Below are positions 1 to 12,302 of a stretch of 12,302 bases of DNA, in pieces. The stretch covers positions 1-12,302 of the forward strand of contig CASDWR010000226.1 in NCBI GenBank assembly GCA_949284665.1, in the 5' to 3' direction. A program made the position numbers and the translations under genes. The stretch comes from an uncultured Rikenellaceae bacterium (lineage in GTDB: Bacteria > Bacteroidota > Bacteroidia > Bacteroidales > Rikenellaceae). The first letter of the stretch is position 1, and each line of letters begins with the position of its first letter. The notes beneath the pieces were generated by a model that saw only the letters and a list, made by a program, of their open reading frames with translations, did not search any database and was not told the origin of the DNA.

Positions 1-722
1 CCCGTGACACTGCCTTTCCCTTCCGGCAACATCGTGCCTGCCATGGTGGAAGCGTCCTTGGTCAACAACAACGCCGTTTCATTCTCTTTATTATATAGGG
101 TACGATACTGCTCGGACGATCCGCCGGCATTGGCAAAAGGCAGCAACGTGGTTTGGAAAAATACGTCCTGCAGTGCGACCAGTTGATTTTCATATGCTCT
201 GGAGGTCGGGTCGAGTTGAGAGAGTGTCAACGACAAGGGCGTGATATCAGCGCCTTTGCCGATTGCGAAAACATTGTTTCTTGTTTGGCGATTGTCCAGC
301 GTGAGGGCTTGTTTACGAATTCCCTCACCGGTGACATTGCTTGCCAGTTGCAATACGCCCCCGATGTCGGCAAGCATCATCCCGCGGCACTGGACGGACA
401 CTTTTTGTCCCTTGCCGTAGTATTCGTTGGATGAACCCATGTCGATGTTGAGCAGAATGGCTCCCGTTTCGTCCTGAATGACGAGTTGACGCGCAAAGTT
501 GCCTTCAGCGTCGCTCGACGTTACGGTACCCTGCACGTAGATCTCATCCGAGATAACGGCATCGGGAGTGTACTCTTTCAGTTTGGAAATTGAAATCTGT
601 TCGCCGTATGGCTCGTATACGAAAACATCCTCTACAAACTCATTCTCTTCCAAACAGGAGAAGGTTAAAAATGAGATTGCCAATGCTGCGATACAGAAAT
701 AAAAGACTTTTATCCCGTTCAT
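1..722 (-). CDS. DUF5689 domain lipoprotein, 3' part missing at window edge
   Basis: An open frame runs without a stop from an ATG at 722-720 to the left edge, giving 240 full codons. The N-terminus (MNGIKVFYFC...) is a typical lipoprotein signal: a hydrophobic stretch followed by FLTFSC, with the acylated Cys at residue 23. Residues 43-130 match the DUF5689 pattern well: ISISKLKEYTPD, then I-VQGTVTSSDAEGNF, then QLVIQDETGAILLNID, then the YYGKGQKVSVQCRGM segment. This is an OB-fold-like domain found in Bacteroidota surface lipoproteins, often near SusC/SusD genes or exported nucleases and phosphatases. The molecular role is unknown, and it is probably an outer-membrane or surface protein. 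The gene is divergent from the phosphoesterase-SusCD unit, so it belongs to another transcript. The family call rests on visible motif similarity only. The missing C-terminal part could carry another domain. Confidence 0.85.
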   Translation of the reverse strand, partial: MNGIKVFYFCIAALAISFLTFSCLEENEFVEDVFVYEPYGEQISISKLKEYTPDAVISDEIYVQGTVTSSDAEGNFARQLVIQDETGAILLNIDMGSSNEYYGKGQKVSVQCRGMMLADIGGVLQLASNVTGEGIRKQALTLDNRQTRNNVFAIGKGADITPLSLTLSQLDPTSRAYENQLVALQDVFFQTTLLPFANAGGSSEQYRTLYNKENETALLLTKDASTMAGTMLPEGKGSVT

Positions 723-1206
723 AACTTTTAATAGTTGGCTTTGTTTGGTTCGTTGGTTCTGATCCGAACGGGTAGCCTCATGTCTCTCTGTAAAGAACCG
801 TTCCCGTAAAAAATCGATACCGACCTTTACGGCTCTTATCGCAGGACAATAATACTCTCTTTTTTTTAAACGAGCAAACATTTTTTAAAGTTTTTTTAAA
901 AAAAGAAGGGGGTCTCTCTTTTTTTTTGAAAAATTTGGTTTTGATGTCGCGAATTAATGAAATCTTAATAAAATTTTAATCTATGGAGATTACTTTTATC
1001 GCGGTTTTGATTCCGAACGGTAACACGAATGCAGCATCTGAGTCTCGAGAGATGTGATTGACGAAACGTCCGTGACAACGGAAAAGTTCCGATTTCTCTC
1101 CCGGTTTTGCGGAGCGATCTCGCTATTTCCGTACTGATGATCGTTGCAACATCCGCTCTCGTTGCTTGAACCGAGAAAATGCGAACTTTAAACAACAAGT
1201 TGATTG
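723..1206. other. Divergent intergenic region, A/T-rich core with small palindromes
   Basis: No credible gene lies here. Bases 860-935 are almost pure A/T runs, including a self-complementary T7A7 tract at about 890-903. From about 1000 the composition becomes mixed, with short symmetric motifs such as GTTGCAAC (1143-1150) and AGCGA-TC-TCGCT (about 1112-1123). The region must hold the start signals for the rightward phosphoesterase-SusCD unit, but no full TTG-N19-TAnnTTTG match was found on the plus strand. The closest is TTG at 1162-1164 with GAACTTTA at 1183-1190, which is weak. A promoter that depends on an activator would fit the poor consensus, but that is inference. Confidence 0.5.
847..878 (-). 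promoter_or_regulatory. Putative Bacteroidota promoter for the DUF5689 gene
   Basis: Read on the minus strand, TTTG (878-875) is followed by a 20-base spacer and TATTATTG (854-847). This is one mismatch from the TAnnTTTG -7 consensus, at the usual spacing. Transcription would begin near 840 and leave an untranslated leader of about 115-120 bases before the ATG at 722. No better candidate was seen on this strand. Confidence 0.5.
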
Positions 1207-2391
1207 ATGATGAGAAAACGTGTACCTGTTTTATTATTGTTATTGTGTACATCGGGTATTCTCTCTTGTGTCAGTGCACGTGAATCGGGCAGTGATTCCG
1301 ACGACACCGTCGCGAAAAAGCCAACCAGTACGAAAACCGACTCGTCGATGAGTTTTGTTCTGCTGGGTGATTTGCATTACGACAAGTTGGAGAATCACGA
1401 CATGGAGTGGTTGTCCCGGGAGAAGCCGGGTGATGTGCGCCAGGTGACAGTAACCTATGTGCCCAATACCGAGTTGAACTGGGACGGACTGATGTACAAT
1501 GTTCGTCAGGTGGTTCGGACTGAAAAGCCCCGAGTACGGGGAATCGTTCAAATCGGTGACCTTTCCGAAGGTCTTGCAGGTTCGGAAGAGTTGGCCGTAC
1601 AGATGGCCCATAGCGCCATCAATGCTGCCAAGGATACGAAAATGGGAGTACCGTGGTTGCTCGCCAAAGGGAACCACGATATTACCGGACCGGGAGCCAA
1701 AGAGGCATTCGTGGAGGTATATACTCCGTTTATCCGTGAGCAGTCGGGTGATCCCACCATTCAGAATGCTACGTATGCCTATCGGGATGGCGATGTCCTT
1801 TTCGTGTTCCTCGATCGGTGGGATTCGAAAGTCGACATAACGGATTTTGCACAGCGAACCCTCAGCGAATCGGATGCCAAGTATAAGTTTGTGGTGATGC
1901 ACGAACCGGTCATTCCGGTAACGGAACGCTGTTGGCATGTGTTCCGGAATGAAGACGAAAAGGCCGAACGTGAAGCATTTATGAAAGTGCTGGCTGAGAA
2001 TGGCGCGATTGTCCTGGCGGCACATTTACACCGTTATGCCGTAGTGAGACGCGAGACGGGATATGGCCCGATTGTTCAGGTTATGGTAGGAAGCGTCATC
2101 GGTAAGGAACGCCGTGGATTACCGACCTATGAAAGAACGCTCCGGGATTACGGTCCGCCCTTGGTGGATTTGGTTCCCTCCTATAAACCCGACAATGCAC
2201 AGGAACGCAAAGCAATACTTTCGGCCGAAGCGTTGCATGTTACCTATTATACGATGTGCGATCTGGCCGGTTATGCCGTGCTGAAAATCGACGACAAGAA
2301 AAATGAGGTGACACTGGACTATTATGCCGGGTTTGAACAAATGCCTTATGACAGAGTCAATCTTACAAAGCTTTGCAATCAATCCAATTAG
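1207..2391 (+). CDS. Calcineurin-like metallophosphoesterase lipoprotein
   Basis: The product is 394 residues with the full metal-ligand set of the calcineurin-like phosphoesterase fold: GDLHYD (54-59), GDLSE (117-121), GNHD (155-158), MHEP (231-234) and AHLHRY (272-277). The last is GHxH-like with Ala in place of Gly. Such enzymes bind two metal ions and hydrolyse phosphomonoesters or phosphodiesters. The N-terminus MMRKRVPVLLLLLCTSGILSC is a lipoprotein signal with the Cys at residue 21, followed by an acidic Ser/Asp/Thr-rich linker to about residue 47. The protein is therefore expected to be anchored on the periplasmic or outer side. The start lies in a TTG-ATG-ATG run at 1204-1212. ATG 1207 is chosen, ATG 1210 is equally possible, and TTG 1204 is less likely. 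The gene ends 56 bases before susC on the same strand, with no terminator between them, so co-transcription is likely. The substrate is unknown. Confidence 0.9.
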   Translation: MMRKRVPVLLLLLCTSGILSCVSARESGSDSDDTVAKKPTSTKTDSSMSFVLLGDLHYDKLENHDMEWLSREKPGDVRQVTVTYVPNTELNWDGLMYNVRQVVRTEKPRVRGIVQIGDLSEGLAGSEELAVQMAHSAINAAKDTKMGVPWLLAKGNHDITGPGAKEAFVEVYTPFIREQSGDPTIQNATYAYRDGDVLFVFLDRWDSKVDITDFAQRTLSESDAKYKFVVMHEPVIPVTERCWHVFRNEDEKAEREAFMKVLAENGAIVLAAHLHRYAVVRRETGYGPIVQVMVGSVIGKERRGLPTYERTLRDYGPPLVDLVPSYKPDNAQERKAILSAEALHVTYYTMCDLAGYAVLKIDDKKNEVTLDYYAGFEQMPYDRVNLTKLCNQSN

Positions 2392-2447: not shown

Positions 2448-5400
2448 ATGAAAAAAATAGTATTGATCCTTATAGCCGTTTTGAGTTCGGCGGTTTTATC
2501 GGCACAGGAGAAAACCTTGTCCGGCCGGGTGACCGAAAGCGATACCGGTGAACCGTTGATCGGTGTATCGGTATTGGTAAAGAACGGAAAAGGAAACGTG
2601 AAAGGAACGGCCACAGGGCCGGATGGAAAGTATTCGATCAAGATCGATAAGGAAGATACCGAAGTGACGTTCCAGTATATTGGTATGGAGTCTGTTACGC
2701 GTACTATCGGGAACAACCAGGTGATCAACGTAGTCATGAAAACCGAAACCCAGATGGTGGACAAGGTCGTGGTGATTGCCGGTGGTGGCAGTCGTGCCCG
2801 GCGTGCGTTGGAAGCTTCGCAGCAGAGTGTCGACGCCGAACAACTGATGGATGTCCGAACTCCGGATTTCGTATCTTCGCTTGCCGGTAAGGTAGCCGGT
2901 CTGGTGGTTAATCCTGCCGGACAAAACACCGGTTCGGCAAGTATCGTCTTGCGCGGTAACAGTTCTGCTACGGCTGACAACAATGCCATCTTCGTGGTGG
3001 ACGGTGTGATCATGGAAAACGGTGCCGTGGGTGGGGAATCCTCCTCGCTGGACTTTGGTAACGGCATGGGTGATATCAACCCCAACGACATCGCTTCGAT
3101 CGAGGTACTGAAAGGTCCGAATGCAACGGCACTTTACGGGTCCCGTGCTGCAAACGGCGTGATCATGATCACAACCAAACAGTCTTCCGGAACCGGTATC
3201 AAAGTCCATTTCCAGAACAGCACGATGTTCCAGCGGATCATCCAGTATCCCGAATATCAGAATACCTTCGGTGTGGGAATGGACCTCGATATCCAGACTT
3301 CCAATACCATGTATCTGCCGAACCCCAAAACCGGCAGCCGGTATCGCAGCTGGGGGCCGATGATGCTTGGCCAGCCCTATATCGCCATCGACGGCAAGGA
3401 ACGGGCATATCTTCCGCAACCGGATAACATCAAAGATTTCTATCAGTCTGCCAGTCTGATAACCAATGCTGTAACCATCGAAGGCGGTACTCGTGAGAAT
3501 AGCATGCGTCTTTCTTATACCAATTATTCCGGTAACAGCGTGGTAGAAGGCATGAATCAGAACAACAAACATACCATCGGACTCAACTTGAACAACAATT
3601 TCACCAAAGCGTTGACGTTGACGTCCCGTATTACCTTCATACACGATGATGTGAAAAACCGGCAGTATCTGAATGCCAACAACCGAAATCCGGTCAATGC
3701 CTATGTGCACATGGCAAGATCCACTTCGTTGGACGAGTTGCGCGATTATAAGGATGAGTTCGGTTACGAACAGTCCACCAACCGGAATACCTCCAATCCT
3801 TACTGGTTGATTAACGAAAATCCCACACATGATGTGCGTGATCGTCTTCAGGGGGCATTCAACCTTCGCTACAAATTGCCGTGGAATATTACGTTGGCCG
3901 GACGTGCCGGTGTGGAATTTTATTGGATGCAAGGTACGCTTTTCCAAAATCTGGGCGGCTTCTATGATCCGGCAGGTCGTGTGGAAGAGTTTACCGAGTT
4001 TTTCAACAGCATTACCCTCGAAGGTACGGCTACGTGGAACAAGAATTTCGGCGATACGTTCAGTGTGACGGCTATGGCCGGTGCTTCCACGAACACTCGG
4101 TCAAGGGATAAGCGTACACAAACCGTGATTGGACTGGTTCAGCCCGATTTTATCCACATATCCAATACAACCGATAAGATTACCCCGGTACAAGATATGT
4201 ACAAACGGGCCACCAATTCGGTGTATGGTTCGGTCTCTCTCGGATACAAGGGAATGCTTTATTTGAATGCTACGGCCCGGAACGACTGGTCATCGACGTT
4301 GCCGCTTGACAATTGTTCCTTCTTCTATCCTTCGATCGGAACCAGTTTCCTCTTTTCGGAATTGCTCAAAGGGGCAATAAATCCCAATGTATTGACATCC
4401 GGTAAGCTGCGCTTCTCTTATGCTATGGTCGGTAATGACACCGCACCTTACCGTATCGCTCAAACCTACGCTATCGGAGGTGTTTTCAATGGCGTACCTT
4501 ACGGTTCGGTTTCGACGACGATGAACAATCCCGAACTGAAACCAGAAATCACGCAGAGTTGGGAAGCCGGATTGGAAATGTCGCTTTTCAGAGACCGGTT
4601 GAGTTTCGACGTGACATGGTACAAGGCATCGACTTATAACCAAATCGTACAGGCATCTGTTTCGCCTACAAGCGGTTATCAGCGGCGTTATTTCAATGCC
4701 GGTGAGATTCGCAACTCGGGTCTTGAAGTAAGTTTCCATGCGACACCCGTGCGTAAAAGGAATTTTTCTTGGAGTACGGATATAAATTTTGCGAAAAACA
4801 ATTCGATGGTTGTCAGCCTTCTCGAAGAGTATAACGTAAACAGCCTGACGCTTTACAGTACATCCAATACATCGGTAAATGTCGAAGTGGGTCAGCCGTA
4901 CGGTTATATCCGAGGTGTAGGCGTTCTGCGGAACGAGGCGGGTCAGATGATTATGGCTGACGGAGCTTCGCCGAGTGATTTCGAACAGGTGCCCAATATG
5001 GGATTCGGAACTTCGAGTCCCGACTGGATGCTCGGATATAACAATATGTTCCAATGGAAGGGGATATCACTTTCATTCCTGGTCGATGTTCGTTTTGGAG
5101 GTATCATATATTGCAACACTTTCTCGAAAATGATGACCAATGGTATGACCACCGTTAATTATGACGGTCGTGTGGGATATGCTCTTTCGAAACAAGTGTA
5201 CAACGAAAACGATGAGGAGATGACACACGGTATCCAATGGGCCAATGCCGTTCAGCGCGTATATGCCGAGGATGGAGTTACGGTGATCGGATATAAACCT
5301 GTGACGAAATATTTCACTCCGTCCGGATACGAATACACAAGAAGTTCGATCAACGAGTTCTCGGTGTTCGATGCGACCTATGTAAAACTTCGTGAGGTGA

Positions 5401-5621
5401 CGTTGGGCTATACGTTACCGGCCGCTTGGGTTCGTAAGACTCCGTTCTCGAATGTGCGTTTTTCTCTGGTAGGACGTAACCTTTGGAATATCTATCAGGA
5501 TACTCCTCGTGGTGTGGATCCCGAATCAGCTGCAACGTCCGGTAACGGTCGGGGTATTGAGAACGGGTCGCTTCCTCCTATAGCCACGTATGGTTTTAAT
5601 ATCAGTTTCTCATTACAGTAA
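2448..5621 (+). CDS. SusC/RagA-family TonB-dependent outer-membrane transporter
   Basis: The product is 1057 residues, normal for SusC. In order: a cleavable signal peptide (1-19, ending VLSA before QE), a carboxypeptidase-regulatory-like beta-sandwich domain (about 23-100, with SGRVTESDTGEPLIGVSVLV and the GPDGKYSI turn), a TonB-box-like segment VDKVVVIAG (104-112), the plug (about 118-245, with LAGKVAGLVV, LRGNSS, FVVDGV and the signature LKGPNATALYGSRAANG), then a long beta-barrel ending in the aromatic outer-membrane terminus FNISFSLQ. It would import a bound oligomer through the outer membrane with energy from TonB-ExbBD, with the SusD-like protein encoded next door acting as the lid. 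There is no N-terminal STN domain, which argues against signalling to an anti-sigma factor. The start has an A/T-rich leader (CAAATTT before ATG) and no Shine-Dalgarno, as is usual in this phylum. The ligand cannot be read from the sequence. Confidence 0.97.
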   Translation: MKKIVLILIAVLSSAVLSAQEKTLSGRVTESDTGEPLIGVSVLVKNGKGNVKGTATGPDGKYSIKIDKEDTEVTFQYIGMESVTRTIGNNQVINVVMKTETQMVDKVVVIAGGGSRARRALEASQQSVDAEQLMDVRTPDFVSSLAGKVAGLVVNPAGQNTGSASIVLRGNSSATADNNAIFVVDGVIMENGAVGGESSSLDFGNGMGDINPNDIASIEVLKGPNATALYGSRAANGVIMITTKQSSGTGIKVHFQNSTMFQRIIQYPEYQNTFGVGMDLDIQTSNTMYLPNPKTGSRYRSWGPMMLGQPYIAIDGKERAYLPQPDNIKDFYQSASLITNAVTIEGGTRENSMRLSYTNYSGNSVVEGMNQNNKHTIGLNLNNNFTKALTLTSRITFIHDDVKNRQYLNANNRNPVNAYVHMARSTSLDELRDYKDEFGYEQSTNRNTSNPYWLINENPTHDVRDRLQGAFNLRYKLPWNITLAGRAGVEFYWMQGTLFQNLGGFYDPAGRVEEFTEFFNSITLEGTATWNKNFGDTFSVTAMAGASTNTRSRDKRTQTVIGLVQPDFIHISNTTDKITPVQDMYKRATNSVYGSVSLGYKGMLYLNATARNDWSSTLPLDNCSFFYPSIGTSFLFSELLKGAINPNVLTSGKLRFSYAMVGNDTAPYRIAQTYAIGGVFNGVPYGSVSTTMNNPELKPEITQSWEAGLEMSLFRDRLSFDVTWYKASTYNQIVQASVSPTSGYQRRYFNAGEIRNSGLEVSFHATPVRKRNFSWSTDINFAKNNSMVVSLLEEYNVNSLTLYSTSNTSVNVEVGQPYGYIRGVGVLRNEAGQMIMADGASPSDFEQVPNMGFGTSSPDWMLGYNNMFQWKGISLSFLVDVRFGGIIYCNTFSKMMTNGMTTVNYDGRVGYALSKQVYNENDEEMTHGIQWANAVQRVYAEDGVTVIGYKPVTKYFTPSGYEYTRSSINEFSVFDATYVKLREVTLGYTLPAAWVRKTPFSNVRFSLVGRNLWNIYQDTPRGVDPESAATSGNGRGIENGSLPPIATYGFNISFSLQ

Positions 5622-5626
5622 ACAAT

Positions 5627-5633
5627 GGAGGAG
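5627..5633 (+). promoter_or_regulatory. Strong Shine-Dalgarno sequence deciding the susD-like start
   Basis: GGAGGAG lies nine bases ahead of ATG 5643 and just after the susC-like stop codon (5619-5621). It overlaps the alternative start at 5625, which therefore is probably not used. The other genes in the window have no comparable site. Confidence 0.6.
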
Positions 5634-5642
5634 ATCAATATT

Positions 5643-7376
5643 ATGAAAAGGAAAAATATATGTTTCCCGGTTTTTGTGCTGGCTGCGCTGCTGGGCCTGT
5701 ACTCGTGTACCCGTAATTTCGAAGAACTCGGGAAAAATCCCAATCAGATAGAAAAACCTACTCCCGATCTGTTGCTGGCATCGTCGGTACGAAATGCGAT
5801 GGACTTTTACGGAGGAGATTTCAATCGGGTGGTAATGTTCAATTATACGCAACATTTTGCCGGATTCCAGGGCGATTTCCAGCGCTATGCTTCGGATGTG
5901 ACCACATTGAACAACTATTGGCGTGATGCATGGATGCCGGTGAAGGATATTCATGAAGTCATCGAGATATATGGGGATGATCAGGCCTACCACAACCGTG
6001 TGCTGATTGCTCGTATCTGGAAGATCTACCTGCTTTCACAGATTGCCGCCATCTGGGGACCGATCCCTTATGAAAATGGACTGGACGGGAAAATCGTGAT
6101 TCCGTACAATCGTGAACAGGATCTCTATTACATGATGCTCGACGATCTGAAAGAGTGTGCGGAAGGTTTGGACCCCGAGGGTGACTACTATACGAAAGAT
6201 CTGCTTTTGGGCACTCAAATTTCGGACAATGTGACCATGGCATCCGACATTGTCAAATGGAAAAAATTCGCCAATTCGTTGCGGTTGCGGCTTGCCATGC
6301 GAATTTCGAACAGTGCTCCCGATGGTGATCCGGTAAAGGCACAGGAAGTGGTTGAAGAGGTGTTCCAGCAGGAAGACTTGACCATTACGTCCGATGACGA
6401 AACTGTTGCATGCAAATGGGGTGGTAATATCACTACTCAGGGAGGGGATGTCAACCCTCTCTATGAGCGTGCTATTTACAATAAATTGGCTAACCTCGGA
6501 TCGTTGCCGGTATTCGGTGAGACGGCAGTCTACCATATGAAACCTTACGGTGATCCGCGCCTTCCGATCTATGCCGAACCCGTTGTACAGAAAAAGGTGG
6601 ATGGAACGGTTCCAGTACATGCCGGTGAGTATTTTGGCGATACCAATTCATACGGTGGGTATGGAGGTAACAGTGGTATCGAGGTGAGTGCGGACCAGCG
6701 GATTCACAGCGGATTGACCCGAGAGGATTATTCTCCGATCGGTTCCCGCTTTACGGCTGCCGATGCCGAGTTCATATTCCTCTCCTGTGCCGAGGTTTGC
6801 TTTTTGAAGGCGGAGGCCCGGTTGCTGGGATGGGGCAATACCTCTTCTAAAAGTGCGGAAGACTATTATTATGAGGGGATTCGGGCGTCGATGAGCCATT
6901 ATGATATTCTGGAGTCGGATGTGGCTGCTTATCTCGAAACTCCGGGGATCAAGTGGGGTACCGCTACCAAAACGACCAACGATCTCGGCGAAGACATTTC
7001 AGCTCAATTCATGGATTGGTTGAAACTTTGCAGCAGCATCGTGGGACAGAATGATTTCCGTCATCAGATCGTTATGCAGCATTGGCTCGCTATTCCCAAT
7101 CAGGGCGTAGATGCATGGACGTTGATGCGTCGTACGCAGGAGTTGCAGTTCGAACCCTGTTTCTCGCCCCCCGACGGTACTTACCGTTATCTGCCGTACC
7201 GTCTCGAATATCCGGTCAACGAAATTCAATACAACGGTCCCGAAGTGGAGAAAGCGATCAACAGTTACCTCACTCCGAGGGGAATTTTCCGCGGAAACGA
7301 CATGTATGTAAAATTGTGGTTTGCCCTGCCCAACAAGGCGATTGACGGCATTCCCAATCCGACAGATTATCTCTAA
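5643..7376 (+). CDS. SusD/RagB-family outer-membrane lipoprotein (SusD-like_2 type)
   Basis: The product is 577 residues from ATG 5643. The signal is MKRKNICFPVFVLAALLGLY-SC with the lipid-anchored Cys at residue 22, then NFEELGKNPN, the usual beginning of this family. The helical TPR-like core carries the SusD-like_2 hallmark WKKFANSLRLRLAMRIS (206-222). The C-terminal part has YPVNE followed by a short loop and a late LWF segment, also typical. It sits on the cell surface and binds ligand for the SusC encoded just upstream. An in-frame ATG at 5625 would add MEEINI in front of the signal peptide. ATG 5643 is preferred because it restores a normal signal and has GGAGGAG (5627-5633) nine bases upstream. 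The gap after susC is 21 bases, so translation is probably coupled within one operon. The family call is secure; the ligand is unknown. Confidence 0.95.
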   Translation: MKRKNICFPVFVLAALLGLYSCTRNFEELGKNPNQIEKPTPDLLLASSVRNAMDFYGGDFNRVVMFNYTQHFAGFQGDFQRYASDVTTLNNYWRDAWMPVKDIHEVIEIYGDDQAYHNRVLIARIWKIYLLSQIAAIWGPIPYENGLDGKIVIPYNREQDLYYMMLDDLKECAEGLDPEGDYYTKDLLLGTQISDNVTMASDIVKWKKFANSLRLRLAMRISNSAPDGDPVKAQEVVEEVFQQEDLTITSDDETVACKWGGNITTQGGDVNPLYERAIYNKLANLGSLPVFGETAVYHMKPYGDPRLPIYAEPVVQKKVDGTVPVHAGEYFGDTNSYGGYGGNSGIEVSADQRIHSGLTREDYSPIGSRFTAADAEFIFLSCAEVCFLKAEARLLGWGNTSSKSAEDYYYEGIRASMSHYDILESDVAAYLETPGIKWGTATKTTNDLGEDISAQFMDWLKLCSSIVGQNDFRHQIVMQHWLAIPNQGVDAWTLMRRTQELQFEPCFSPPDGTYRYLPYRLEYPVNEIQYNGPEVEKAINSYLTPRGIFRGNDMYVKLWFALPNKAIDGIPNPTDYL

Positions 7377-7405: not shown

Positions 7406-8533
7406 ATGAAAAGAATATTGAATATTTCGACATTGGCCGTCGTTGTCGCAGCAGTCTTGTCCGCTTGTAAAACCAACGAATATCTGCCGCCCGACTGGGC
7501 TTATCCCATTCCTCAGACGACACTCGATCGGAGTGCCAATCTCGGAGCCTATTATACGATGCGGACGACCCAGGCTTGGGCCGAAGGAATCAAGGATACT
7601 CCGTTGCTGAACATCGTGTCGGAGGAGGGTGAAGAGCCTCAGACCGTCGTTTATACGACCAATCTGAACGGCATTATGACCCAGCAATGCAAATGGGCGG
7701 ATCAGGCCGGCATCGATTTTTTCATCTTCCCTTGGAACGCTACGGCCGAAAATCGGGAATTGATGGATATTTATCTCTACTATCGGGAGATTGATAACCC
7801 GAATGTGAAAGTGGTTTTCAACTACTCATTCGGTCATCTCTCGCTTGGTGCGGAAAAACAACTCGTTGATTTTGGAGAGGCCTTCGATCAGTTGGTTGCT
7901 GAATTCAAAACGTTGTACACGGACTATTTCAGTCAGGATTTTTACTATCGTCTTCCGGATGGTCGGCCGGTAATTCTGTTCCCCGGAACGGTAAACGAGA
8001 ATGTTGATTTCTCGCTTTTCATCGGAGCATTCCGGCAGGCCATGAGTGAGTTTACTGTCGAGTTGCAGGAGGCGGACCCGTCGATCCCTTCGTCGGTTAT
8101 GGATTTCTATATCATCGGTGAAGTGTCCGGCAACTGGCTACCGCCGCAGCGTAATGAAAGTGTGTCAAAGTATCTGGATGGGAATTTCGTTAAGCAATGG
8201 TATCCGACACGATATTACGAACGCTGGTATGCATTCTATTCCTATACGGATATGGCGTGGGAAAACTGGAGGAATTACAGTGCCAACTGGGGCAACGATT
8301 TCGTGCCGTGTATTTTCCCGGAATATTACGTGACCGAAAGCGGTTCGCGTTCCATTGAACGTACGGAGGATAATTATGTCAGTTTCTGCAATGTCGCAAA
8401 ACGCAATATCGGAAGCAATTATGTGGTGATTATCAATTCGTGGAACGAATTCGAGACCGGATCGGCTCTCGAACCTGCCCTCGAATATGGAGAACGTTAT
8501 CTCGACATTACTCGCGAGCAATTCAAGAAATAA
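7406..8533 (+). CDS. GH99/WbsX-like (GH71-99 group) TIM-barrel lipoprotein
   Basis: The product is 375 residues, of about the size of a single TIM-barrel domain. MKRILNISTLAVVVAAVLSAC is a lipoprotein signal (LSAC, Cys 21). The body resembles glycoside hydrolase family 99 and the related WbsX-like domain: LGAYYTM near the start (47-52), KWADQAGIDFFIFPWN (96-111, early strand-helix), FPEYYVTES (304-312), and the C-terminal INSWNEFETGSALEP (343-357) followed by YGERYLDITREQF. GH99 enzymes are endo-acting alpha-mannosidases/mannanases. In those enzymes the last motif is roughly NEWHEGTxIEP with two catalytic Glu; here it is NEFETGSALEP, so the second Glu position is Thr 351 and Glu 350 lies next to it. 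Activity on alpha-mannosides is possible but unproven. It is the last gene of the unit, 29 bases after the susD-like gene, and a strong terminator follows. It probably acts at the cell surface or in the periplasm on glycan handled by the SusCD pair. Confidence 0.75.
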   Translation: MKRILNISTLAVVVAAVLSACKTNEYLPPDWAYPIPQTTLDRSANLGAYYTMRTTQAWAEGIKDTPLLNIVSEEGEEPQTVVYTTNLNGIMTQQCKWADQAGIDFFIFPWNATAENRELMDIYLYYREIDNPNVKVVFNYSFGHLSLGAEKQLVDFGEAFDQLVAEFKTLYTDYFSQDFYYRLPDGRPVILFPGTVNENVDFSLFIGAFRQAMSEFTVELQEADPSIPSSVMDFYIIGEVSGNWLPPQRNESVSKYLDGNFVKQWYPTRYYERWYAFYSYTDMAWENWRNYSANWGNDFVPCIFPEYYVTESGSRSIERTEDNYVSFCNVAKRNIGSNYVVIINSWNEFETGSALEPALEYGERYLDITREQFKK

Positions 8534-8564: not shown

Positions 8565-8599
8565 AGCGCTGTCCGTTTTAAGCGGACAGCGCTTTTTTT
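8565..8599 (+). terminator. Intrinsic terminator of the phosphoesterase-SusCD-GH99-like unit
   Basis: A perfect 11-base-pair stem, AGCGCTGTCCG (8565-8575) with CGGACAGCGCT (8583-8593), encloses a 7-base loop. The last stem base starts a run of seven T (8593-8599). It lies 31 bases after the last stop codon and has a T-run only on the plus-strand side, so it is one-directional. Confidence 0.93.
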
Positions 8600-8783: not shown

Positions 8784-8813
8784 TTGTTATGGAACAAAAG
8801 TTTTTTATATTTG
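8784..8813 (+). promoter_or_regulatory. Consensus Bacteroidota promoter of the SARP-type regulator gene
   Basis: TTG (8784-8786), a 19-base spacer and TATATTTG (8806-8813) form an exact TAnnTTTG promoter. Transcription should start near 8820, giving a leader of only about 20 bases with no Shine-Dalgarno before ATG 8839. The regulator is thus transcribed independently of the terminated operon upstream. Confidence 0.82.
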
Positions 8814-8838: not shown

Positions 8839-11388
8839 ATGCGGCTCCACCGTTTTGTACTGCTCGTATACGGTTTATGTCTTGTATGCCATTCCCCGTT
8901 GCATGCTCAATTCCTGGGAGGTATTGAGTTCCGTTCGTATGAGACGAATCAGGATGAGCGAAGTTCGGTGTTGATCCCTGCAACGGGAAAGGGTTTGCCG
9001 CTCCGTGATGGTCTGACAATCGAGTTTGATGTCCGAGTCAGGGAAGGAGCGGACAGGTTCGGCTATATCGCCCGTATCCTTATCGGTCAGACCGACAACC
9101 TTGATATCATGCTTAATAACCCGTCCGGGGACGAATCGTTCATGTGTCTCATCAAGAATACAAAATTCTTGACCAAAATTCATCCGGACACCTTGATACG
9201 GTTGGATGAGTGGAATCGGGTGAAATTGGAATTGTCGACCGGGAACGATGGATTGTACATTGGCGAGAACGGAACGACCCTTGTTCGTGACACCTTGTTG
9301 GCAGCCGATCGATATGTGAAGATCTTTTTCGGTCGGAATACGGAACCGGGGTTTGCGACTACGGATGTTGCCCCGGTATGTGTCCGGAATCTCGTTGTGA
9401 CGGTCGGTCATGATAAAGAGGTCTATGAGTGGCCTTTTTCACGACCGTCGTCGACTTCAAAGGTGACCGACGACTCGGGTAAAATGATTGCCGACGTGCG
9501 AAATGTAAATTGGATGAGTGCAGCCCATCTTTGTTGGAAAAAGGTCGGCGGATGGAGATTTTCCTCAAAAGTGTTCCCCGTGATTGCACCGGAAGAGAGG
9601 ATGTTTTATCTGGTTACCGAAAATGAGGTGATCGGATATCGTCCGGCCGACAATGCCGTGTATCGTTATCCATTTACGCCTTCATTACCGGTTCGAATGC
9701 TGTCGGACCAATTCGTGTATGATCGGGCATGCGGCGGTTTGGTGTTATACGATTTCGAGCGTCCTGCCGAATCAACACTTTCCGTATTCGATTTTGAAAA
9801 GAAAAAATGGAGCGTTCCTGTTGTGCGAACGCGGGAAGCGGCCAATCTGCACCATAGTAAATTCGTTTCGCCGATCGATACCTCGATTGTGCAACTTTTC
9901 GGCTATGGTTTTCACAAATATCTTGGCGGTTTGTCGGCCATCTCTCCTTCCGGAATCCGTACAGAAAAAGATTTGTCGGATTTCCTGCCTCCGCGTTATC
10001 TCAGTGCTGTAGGTTGTGCCGATTCATCGCTCTACATTTATGGCGGAGTGGGAAATGAACTCGGTATGCAGGAATACGGCATCCATGTGTACAACGACTT
10101 GTATCGAATGAATCTCGCTGACTTGAGCATTGTTAAAATCGTCCAGACCGAGCCCGCCAAAGTACCCGAAACGGCAGCATCTTCGTTGATCGTCGACGAG
10201 AAAACCCAATCTGCGAGAGCTCTTTTCTTTTCGCCCAGTAGATATCAATCTTATCTTGTTTTGAAAGATATAGATCTGACGACAGGAAAGACAACGATAC
10301 TTGCCGATACAATTCCTTATATCTTCACCGATACCGAGTCGGATGCCGATTTGATTTTCGATTCCGTACGAAATGCCTACTATGCGATAACCGTACACAA
10401 AATTCCTGAAGGCGGATATGAAACGAACATTTATGAGGTGCGTGCCCCGGTCCTTTCACCGTTGAATGCTGCCGTGCAGCATCCTGTACGGGACAGAAAA
10501 TGGATATGGGTGGTGTTACCGGTAATTCTTGCCGCAATTATCGTAATTTGTCTGCTCGTGTTGCACCGACGCCGTCACAAGGTCGACGCTCCGTCTGGAG
10601 CCCTTTCCCTTTCGGATGAGAGCGATGCGGCACTGCCGCTTGATTTGACGACTGAACGTCAGAAAAAGCCGGGAATCTATTTGTTGAACGGGTTCCAGAT
10701 CATTGCTTCCGATGGCAGCGACATAACAGGAGAGTTTACACCCATCATGCGTCAACTGTTGTCGTTGATCATTCTCTATACGCAGAATAGCGAAAAGGGG
10801 ATCTCGAATGTGAAATTAAAGGATTTCCTTTGGTTCGACAAATCGGAAGAGAGTTCACGCAACAATCGAAGTGTCCACATCAGTAAGATCCGGCTGTTGC
10901 TTGAGTCCGTCGGAAATTATCGGATTAGTTCGCACAATGGATATTGGAAATTCGTTTGCGGAGATGATGGGTGGTGCGATTATATCTATGCGACCAATGC
11001 TGTCGATCGTCTCAAGGGGCAGAAAGATCCCGGAGAGACAGAACTCCATACTGCCATTCTTATTGCATCATGGGGTCAGTTGCTTCCCAACCTGCAATTC
11101 GATTTCCTGGATGGTTTCAAGGCCGATTACTCGGATTCGATGATTGTTTTGCTCTCTGAGTTGTTGAGAAACAGACCGAAAGATGATTATCAGACGAAAA
11201 TCAAGATTGCCGATGGAATTCTGCGATTCGATTCGTTGGATGAGAATGCGGTCAAGGAGAAGTGCCGATCATTGGTGGCATTGAGAAGGATCGGTATGGC
11301 GCATACTACGTTCGATATTTTCATCCGGGAGTATGAACAGGTGATGGGAGTCTCGTGTGAGAGCAGTTTCGACGAATTCATCCGATAG
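8839..11388 (+). CDS. Membrane-spanning one-component regulator: LamG-Kelch sensor with SARP/BTAD output
   Basis: The product is 849 residues. A signal peptide (1-23, ending LHA) precedes a beta-rich region at about 25-200 that reads as a concanavalin/LamG-like jelly roll (DGLTIEFDVRV; LDEWNRVKLEL; VRNLVV). Residues about 235-535 look like a Kelch-type propeller, with blades such as VGCADSSLYIYGGVG (391-405) followed by NDLYRMNLADLS. One transmembrane helix spans 555-575, followed by HRRRHK, which places the C-terminus in the cytoplasm. Residues 612-708 form an OmpR/SARP-type winged helix (YLLNGFQII; LLSLIILY; NNRSVHISKIRLLLES; NGYWKF), and 711-849 match the helical BTAD domain (FDSLDENAVKEKCRSLVALRRIG; FIREYEQVMGV). 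The likely role is to sense a glycan or envelope ligand outside and activate transcription directly inside, without phosphorelay. The target is inferred to be the adjacent operon. The Kelch and LamG calls are from pattern only. Confidence 0.85.
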   Translation: MRLHRFVLLVYGLCLVCHSPLHAQFLGGIEFRSYETNQDERSSVLIPATGKGLPLRDGLTIEFDVRVREGADRFGYIARILIGQTDNLDIMLNNPSGDESFMCLIKNTKFLTKIHPDTLIRLDEWNRVKLELSTGNDGLYIGENGTTLVRDTLLAADRYVKIFFGRNTEPGFATTDVAPVCVRNLVVTVGHDKEVYEWPFSRPSSTSKVTDDSGKMIADVRNVNWMSAAHLCWKKVGGWRFSSKVFPVIAPEERMFYLVTENEVIGYRPADNAVYRYPFTPSLPVRMLSDQFVYDRACGGLVLYDFERPAESTLSVFDFEKKKWSVPVVRTREAANLHHSKFVSPIDTSIVQLFGYGFHKYLGGLSAISPSGIRTEKDLSDFLPPRYLSAVGCADSSLYIYGGVGNELGMQEYGIHVYNDLYRMNLADLSIVKIVQTEPAKVPETAASSLIVDEKTQSARALFFSPSRYQSYLVLKDIDLTTGKTTILADTIPYIFTDTESDADLIFDSVRNAYYAITVHKIPEGGYETNIYEVRAPVLSPLNAAVQHPVRDRKWIWVVLPVILAAIIVICLLVLHRRRHKVDAPSGALSLSDESDAALPLDLTTERQKKPGIYLLNGFQIIASDGSDITGEFTPIMRQLLSLIILYTQNSEKGISNVKLKDFLWFDKSEESSRNNRSVHISKIRLLLESVGNYRISSHNGYWKFVCGDDGWCDYIYATNAVDRLKGQKDPGETELHTAILIASWGQLLPNLQFDFLDGFKADYSDSMIVLLSELLRNRPKDDYQTKIKIADGILRFDSLDENAVKEKCRSLVALRRIGMAHTTFDIFIREYEQVMGVSCESSFDEFIR

Positions 11389-12215: not shown

Positions 12216-12297
12216 GCCCAGGTGGCGGAATAGGTAGACGCGCACGTTTCAGGTGCGTGTGCCGCAAGGCGTGCAGGTTCGATTCCTGTCCTGGGCA
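12216..12297 (+). tRNA. tRNA-Leu (anticodon CAG)
   Basis: This is a complete class II cloverleaf. The acceptor arms are GCCCAGG (12216-12222) and CCTGGGC (12290-12296), with discriminator A at 12297. The D stem is GCG/CGC with GG in the loop. The anticodon stem CACGT/GCGTG encloses the loop TTCAGGT, with anticodon CAG at 12250-12252. A long variable arm GCC-GCAA-GGC follows, then a T arm with TTCGATT. The long variable arm and A discriminator agree with leucine. It reads CUG codons. The CCA end is not encoded (CTC follows) and must be added after transcription. Confidence 0.96.
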
Positions 12298-12302
12298 CTC
12301 AA

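Follow-up and report, generated by a model that had tools for sequence, protein, structure and literature searches.

The 12,302-nucleotide contig CASDWR010000226.1 of an uncultured Rikenellaceae bacterium (GenBank assembly GCA_949284665.1), hereafter the window, carries beside a SusC/SusD (SusCD) operon a gene for an 849-residue protein in which a Kelch sensor is joined through one transmembrane helix to a SARP-type DNA-binding half. We propose, with a probability of about 77%, that this protein acts as a one-component system of the inner membrane that activates transcription of a polysaccharide utilisation locus (PUL). The domain architecture, predicted topology, SARP homology, linkage to sugar loci, conserved repeats and promoter geometry described below are computational observations. 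The original prediction, made from the window alone, had read the gene and its order of domains in the same way, and we found a beta domain, a Kelch propeller, one transmembrane helix and a SARP half in that order:

8839..11388, + strand: transmembrane SARP-type regulator, 849 aa (open reading frame and profile evidence)
8839..8907, + strand: predicted signal peptide, residues 1-23 (sequence reading; model helix 2-17)
8914..9516, + strand: beta-rich N-terminal domain, residues 26-226, at most LamG-like
9523..10458, + strand: Kelch beta-propeller, residues 229-540 (profile and structure searches)
10504..10560, + strand: transmembrane helix, residues 556-574 (hydrophobicity; model helix 554-581)
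10561..10668, + strand: poorly conserved cytoplasmic linker, residues 575-610
10669..10968, + strand: OmpR/SARP-type winged helix, residues 611-710 (profiles, model)
10969..11385, + strand: BTAD (TPR-like) domain, residues 711-849 (profiles)

Profile-profile comparison identifies the output half. By hhalign the C-terminal half matched SARP at 99.8% and 99.3% (shuffled controls at or below 0.7%) and was collinear with it over 240 columns, so that the winged helix and BTAD domain claimed earlier for residues 612-849 are borne out. Among family members, 21/55 matched BTAD and 17/55 matched Trans_reg_C at E values up to 1; the C-terminal half of the window protein itself had no Pfam match. Its C-terminal profile retrieved mainly designed-TPR and saposin matches from the PDB, with one response regulator at E 0.76, and a single-sequence PDB search with the regulator gave nothing credible. 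The structure model was built from a 61-row alignment (single-sequence AlphaFold2 gave a pLDDT of 34.5); the structure-search lists obtained with it are filled by the propeller and show no SARP fold, and because of this crowding the missing fold is no evidence of its absence. The lack of a Pfam match in the window protein would suit a degenerate SARP domain that serves protein contacts instead of DNA binding, but we consider this highly improbable given that residues 611-710 are better conserved than the other five segments compared, that the model is confident there and that matching repeats are present. As had been claimed, the protein is without kinase or receiver: no histidine kinase, receiver or AraC domain occurs among its Pfam matches up to E 10, nor was a sigma or anti-sigma domain found in Pfam and NCBIfam scans of the regulator.

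The topology is consistent across the family. Exactly one hydrophobic helix past residue 60 is present in 89/91 family proteins, as was read earlier for residues 555-575 of the window protein, and the mean net charge over 12 residues is +3.9 after the helix versus +0.9 before it (n = 90). A single helix with positive charge on its C-terminal flank places the sensor outside and the SARP half inside, and we accordingly predict a periplasmic sensor and a cytoplasmic SARP half. Within the sensor, residues 229-540 form a Kelch-repeat propeller, whereas the LamG or jelly-roll name given earlier to the preceding domain is only weakly backed: Pfam Laminin_G had no match in the window protein and matched 1-2/48 family members. 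A comparison of this domain with the LamG region of a related protein (locus L016) gave 1.1%. LamG thus remains a weakly supported label for residues 26-226, which counts against our reading of the sensor. The Foldseek list obtained with the model includes the extracellular domain of BT4673 (3va6, 3ott), a protein that the excerpts of PMC3878776 available to us class as a hybrid two-component system (HTCS).

In the available excerpts of PMC10972967 and PMC5930380, SARP operators are built from two or three heptamers, which classically form 11-bp units and usually overlap the -35 region; if the C-terminal half is a SARP, tandem repeats of ~11 bp would be expected at its targets. We examined the gaps between regulator genes and divergent upstream genes of at least 480 aa (gap length 100-520 bp; 52 gaps, or 37 after dropping regulators at least 80% identical), with 195 gaps from the same loci that do not adjoin the regulator, in any orientation, as controls. 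A motif-free count of repeats at offset 11 gave 190 versus 39 in shuffles for the 52 gaps and 136 versus 27.9 for the 37 gaps (z 15.5), which was the strongest offset, the next being offset 23 (z 7.2). The sequence GGGTTA-N5-GGGTTA (at most 2 mismatches) was present in 31/37 divergent gaps, always in one orientation, versus 5/195 control gaps, and in 1/14 gaps with the upstream gene on the regulator's strand. In the direction of the sugar operon, the consensus runs TTAACCC-N4-TTAACCC-N5-TTAACC, followed after ~12 nt by TTTG; a third TTAA[CT] lies 2-8 nt past the second repeat in 24/31 (operon orientation), and TTTG lies 20-33 nt past it in 22/31 (shuffle mean 2.07, maximum 6). Information content is highest in the two-repeat core (1.46 bits per column, compared with 0.42 over the 36 columns upstream, 0.55 over the 28 columns after it and 0.18 farther downstream), and shared recent descent therefore fails to account for that core. 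For co-directional or otherwise placed operons, 12 gaps of 10 hand-picked loci were compared without a shuffle control, and TTAACC-like triplets pointing toward the operon were seen in 7/10 loci (L021, L029, L075, L080 and L099; weaker in L025 and L061). As a prediction from sequence, these promoters carry SARP-type direct repeats at ~11 bp near the core promoter.

Several results weigh against so simple a picture. The control gaps are themselves periodic (offset 22, z 10.7) and slightly enriched for repeats at offset 11 (161 versus 95.7, z 3.8); the operator is missing from 6/37 divergent gaps (L018, L032, L038, L054, L096 and L100); and among the hand-picked loci L019 and L043 (in the gap examined) show no triplet, and the pair in L015 is imperfect. 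Moreover, the operator of the 37 divergent gaps sits between regulator and operon and could serve either, which would also suit a repressor or a protein that mainly autoregulates its own gene. That reading appears quite unlikely: the orientation of the repeats and their distance to the -7 element track the sugar operon, also in co-directional loci, the operator predicted in the window is 7.9 kb from the regulator gene with no match before that gene, and SARPs usually activate (PMC10972967, as excerpted).

The window and its nearest relatives carry a variant of the repeat with TTAA units. The recognition helix reads NNRSVHISKIR in the window versus KNSRGVTINHLR in the relatives of TTAACCC type, and the GGGTTA operator shows no excess in the window (5 matches at 3 mismatches, 8.6 expected). 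Bacteroidales promoters follow a -7/-33 consensus, of which the -7 element is TAnnTTTG, and the features of the window outside the regulator gene are as follows:

3..722, - strand: DUF5689 protein, truncated where the window ends and transcribed away from the SusCD operon
954..979, strand not assigned: predicted operator of three TTAA units spaced by 11 bp, roughly midway between the DUF5689 gene and the SusCD operon
991..998, + strand: -7-like element TACTTTTA on the SusCD side of the operator, one off the consensus TAnnTTTG
1207..2391, + strand: calcineurin-like phosphoesterase, opening the run
2448..5621, + strand: SusC/RagA TonB-linked porin
5625..7376, + strand: SusD-like protein (SusD-like_2)
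7406..8533, + strand: GH99/WbsX-like protein (Pfam WbsX 3.2e-6), called GH99-like from the presumed kinship of WbsX with GH99
8565..8599, + strand: hairpin and T-run, likely terminator, in the gap between operon and regulator (read in the sequence; a scan gives a shorter stem, 8580-8594)
8806..8813, + strand: TATATTTG, -7-like element in the promoter of the regulator gene
12216-12298: tRNA-Leu(CAG), 3' of the regulator gene

The divergent promoter region (723-1206) thus separates the DUF5689 gene from the phosphoesterase-SusC-SusD-GH99/WbsX run. Since the hairpin with its T-run and the element TATATTTG both precede the regulator gene, that gene is probably transcribed apart from the SusCD operon. 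The pattern TTAA-N7/8-TTAA-N7/8-TTAA was derived by eye from the promoters of the window, L017 and L018, without use of L020. It occurs once in the window (954-979; shuffle mean 0.01), before GH92 and before a DUF5689 gene in L017, between phosphoesterase-SusC and DUF5689 as well as before a GH99-like gene in L018, before SusC and before GH43 in L020, and in neither L019 nor L015; shuffle means across these loci are 0 to 0.03. L017 and L018, the nearest relatives of the window, have GH92, alkaline phosphatase and DUF5689 in their surroundings, and L018 also has phosphoesterase and GH99-like genes, the latter below the Pfam cut-off.

Genome-wide, TTAA matches (with those of a backward-pattern control in brackets) numbered 2 (1) in genome G167, 6 (8) in G093, 4 (0) in G018, 4 (0) in the source genome G000 and 1 (1) in G206. 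Near the regulator lay 2/2 of these in G167, 5/6 in G093 (in three places on the regulator's contig), 2/4 in G018, 1/4 in G000 and 0/1 in G206. The source genome (1.89 Mb in 281 contigs, 76.6% complete; the window is its contig C226) contains, as assembled, a single match to the regulator protein, and its TTAA matches fall in three places, one of them in the window. A second (G000:C175:2651-2677, L163) lies ~100 bp from the start of a phosphoesterase-GH99-like-GH92 run, with an unidentified open reading frame starting about as near on the opposite side, and the third (G000:C167:11851-11887, L162:5852) comprises four TTAA units, spaced by 11 bp, immediately ahead of a gene for a PHO4 phosphate transporter; it could be a member of the regulon, a Pho box or a chance occurrence.

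Several points tell against the TTAA form. The window, L017 and L018 are the very source of the pattern, and totals in G093 (6 versus 8) and G206 (1 versus 1) are not above the backward control, so that location alone is telling. The window triplet is modest by itself (16/1000 shuffles reach its score, and 9- and 30-bp spacings do as well or better), and L018 is not significant at a strict 11/11 spacing (316/1000), its actual spacing being 11/12; the case consequently rests on the family. L019 and L015 share the NNR type of recognition helix with the window without a clear TTAA triplet, and one match in the source genome precedes the phosphate transporter. The site at 954-979 is also about equidistant from its neighbours, 227 nt before the ATG at 1207 and 231 nt from the divergent DUF5689 start, and may therefore serve the DUF5689 gene or the SusCD operon.

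Pho boxes are likewise 7-bp repeats at 11-bp spacing, and the repeats could be such boxes, or could be bound by a different response regulator of the OmpR family, and not by the membrane protein. The wealth of phosphatases in the window's clade, the match before the PHO4 transporter and the lack of clear sites in L019 and L015 would all fit. We nevertheless judge this unlikely. In 22 genus-mates of the source genome, the TTAA pattern occurs 0-2 times each, 15 times in total versus 43 for the backward control; of the 12/15 sites that were read, four lie inside open reading frames and none lies before a phosphate-related gene recognised by eye, without a family search. None of the regulator search matches (n = 12) came from a genus-mate. 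The sites in G167 and G093 are concentrated where the regulator gene lies, those of G093 near SusC and GH43, and the TTAACCC form marks the gaps beside the regulator gene, mostly in loci with mannan enzymes.

The survey of homologue neighbourhoods covered 95 loci, of which 92 are distinct (L022, L024 and L026 were dropped as duplicates of L030, L051 and L074); each cluster took its family name from one representative or a few, and the recount of SusC excludes ~600-aa CarboxypepD_reg proteins that the iterated SusC profile also caught. Near the regulator we found SusC in 66 of the 92 loci, SusD in 66, GH76 in 55, GH92 in 28, GH125 in 11, the CarboxypepD_reg protein in 30 and a GtaA-type protein in 26. 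At least one of GH76, GH92 and GH125 occurs in 76/92 loci, and their joint occurrence points to alpha-mannan as the substrate. SusC is present in 58/80 named loci (at any distance in the sequence read), within 9 kb of the regulator in 46/61 named loci that extend 9 kb or more in each direction, and in 11/12 loci of the own-family and extra set. Linkage to SusCD loci, as proposed for the window from its gene order, is therefore a property of most homologues, and the unlinked homologues that would have contradicted it were not seen as a rule. Yet 22/80 named loci are without SusC (14 of these have flanks of 9 kb or more in both directions), and SusC is common in these genomes (at least 18 to 33 matches each), which makes SusC linkage alone moderate and not decisive evidence; 6/92 loci have neither SusC/SusD nor GH76, GH92 or GH125 (L028, L051, L054, L055, L071 and L088). 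Two further proteins are conserved near the regulator, one of 271 aa (56 loci; L030:168-980) and one of 733 aa (42 loci; L032:19175-21373), and neither representative has a Pfam match.

Homologues also differ in what precedes the SARP half. Two adjoining transmembrane SARPs on contig C3 of genome G433 (L118 and L129) differ, by eye, in that one has a beta domain without Kelch and the other both, so the sensor half looks modular. On a Parabacteroides distasonis plasmid (NZ_OY725768.1; L016:10177-12855) the transmembrane SARP half stands on a different N-terminus with Laminin_G_3 (4.8e-14) and, by eye, a further PLC-like domain, and without a Kelch match. In distant genomes of the phylum (L121, L122, L124, L125 and L130) the SARP halves follow soluble-looking N-terminal regions, classed by eye as TPR or receiver. 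A first contig scan and a viral-contig scan for relatives of the regulator found none; three faecal records filed as 'Bacteriophage sp.' (MT835908.1, MT836524.1 and MT836310.1) carry homologues, one nearly full length, and are probably bacterial contigs filed as phage.

In the mechanism that we propose, the beta-rich domain and the Kelch propeller would bind, in the periplasm, an oligosaccharide that the adjoining SusC/SusD pair brings in. This ligand, which we infer, is most likely a fragment of alpha-mannan, perhaps a phosphorylated one in the window's clade. Binding would make chains pair through their single transmembrane helices and so change the oligomeric state, and two or three cytoplasmic SARP domains could then cooperatively occupy the 11/12-bp tandem repeats on one face of the DNA. 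With the last repeat near the -33 region, polymerase would be recruited to the -7 promoter of the SusCD/glycosidase operon. The positive sign of control, dimerisation, the working of the protein while tethered and the assignment of the repeats as its sites are what we infer here. Alternatively, regulated intramembrane proteolysis might release the SARP half and so activate the same regulator: the poorly conserved linker at 575-610 could act as a release tether, and the soluble form would resemble ordinary SARPs. We regard this as a serious but less probable alternative; SusR and the HTCSs are described as membrane proteins in the excerpts of PMC3878776. The direct signalling from membrane to DNA in the original prediction is supported by predicted operators beside adjoining operons.

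If our proposal of a membrane-bound activator is true, PULs would have a further, phosphorelay-free class of regulator whose predicted operator makes direct testing possible, many unassigned loci would gain a hint of their substrate (alpha-mannan), SARP outputs would serve as membrane receptors outside Actinobacteria, and a compact sensor-promoter pair would be useful in engineering gut commensals. Three Bacteroidetes-specific systems proposed for PUL control, namely SusR, HTCS and ECF sigma/anti-sigma, are listed in the excerpts of PMC3878776 (2013), which also assign two alpha-mannan-activated loci of Bacteroides thetaiotaomicron to the HTCSs BT2628 and BT3786. Somewhat better than even, in our estimate, is the chance that transmembrane SARPs are a phylum-wide fourth class that senses glycans in the periplasm and binds DNA directly, with modular sensors (a beta domain with Kelch, a beta domain by itself, or other folds) and an operator code (TTAACCC or TTAA) that tracks the recognition helix, and that in many Bacteroidota this class runs the alpha-mannan PULs that HTCSs govern in B. 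thetaiotaomicron.

Canonical SARPs are soluble, with the DNA-binding domain at the N-terminus. The regulator resembles those of AfsR/DnrI type in its collinear output half and in operators predicted to lie close to the core promoter, with two or three repeats in 11/12-bp units, but its SARP half is C-terminal behind a transmembrane helix and a periplasmic Kelch sensor, and it stands beside Bacteroidota sugar loci and not antibiotic clusters; it is thus a variant with a SARP output half and not a canonical SARP. ToxR and CadC, with an N-terminal winged helix, a C-terminal sensor and no BTAD, share single-chain signalling from membrane to DNA and an OmpR-type winged helix with the regulator and have the reverse order of domains. 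The HTCSs of the alpha-mannan loci (BT2628, BT3786) are alike in their large periplasmic sensor and PUL target, but the regulator lacks kinase, receiver and AraC domains, and HTCS motifs average 21 bp between sites (PMC3878776, excerpted). Of the HTCS-like layout noted in the original prediction, the absence of kinase, receiver and phosphorelay therefore stands, whereas by function the protein is nearer to SusR. SusR is also a membrane protein with a periplasmic sensor and a cytoplasmic DNA-binding domain that activates the sus locus; the excerpts of PMC3878776, on which this comparison is based, describe its DNA-binding domain as lacking significant similarity to others known, and in its predicted motifs 67 or 77 bp separate the sites, a spacing unlike the 11/12 bp of the operators predicted here. 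A transmembrane SARP in Bacteroidota was not found described in the open-access literature (subscription papers being outside this scope), and this protein, a variant with a SARP output half, has a good chance of representing a distinct class of regulator.

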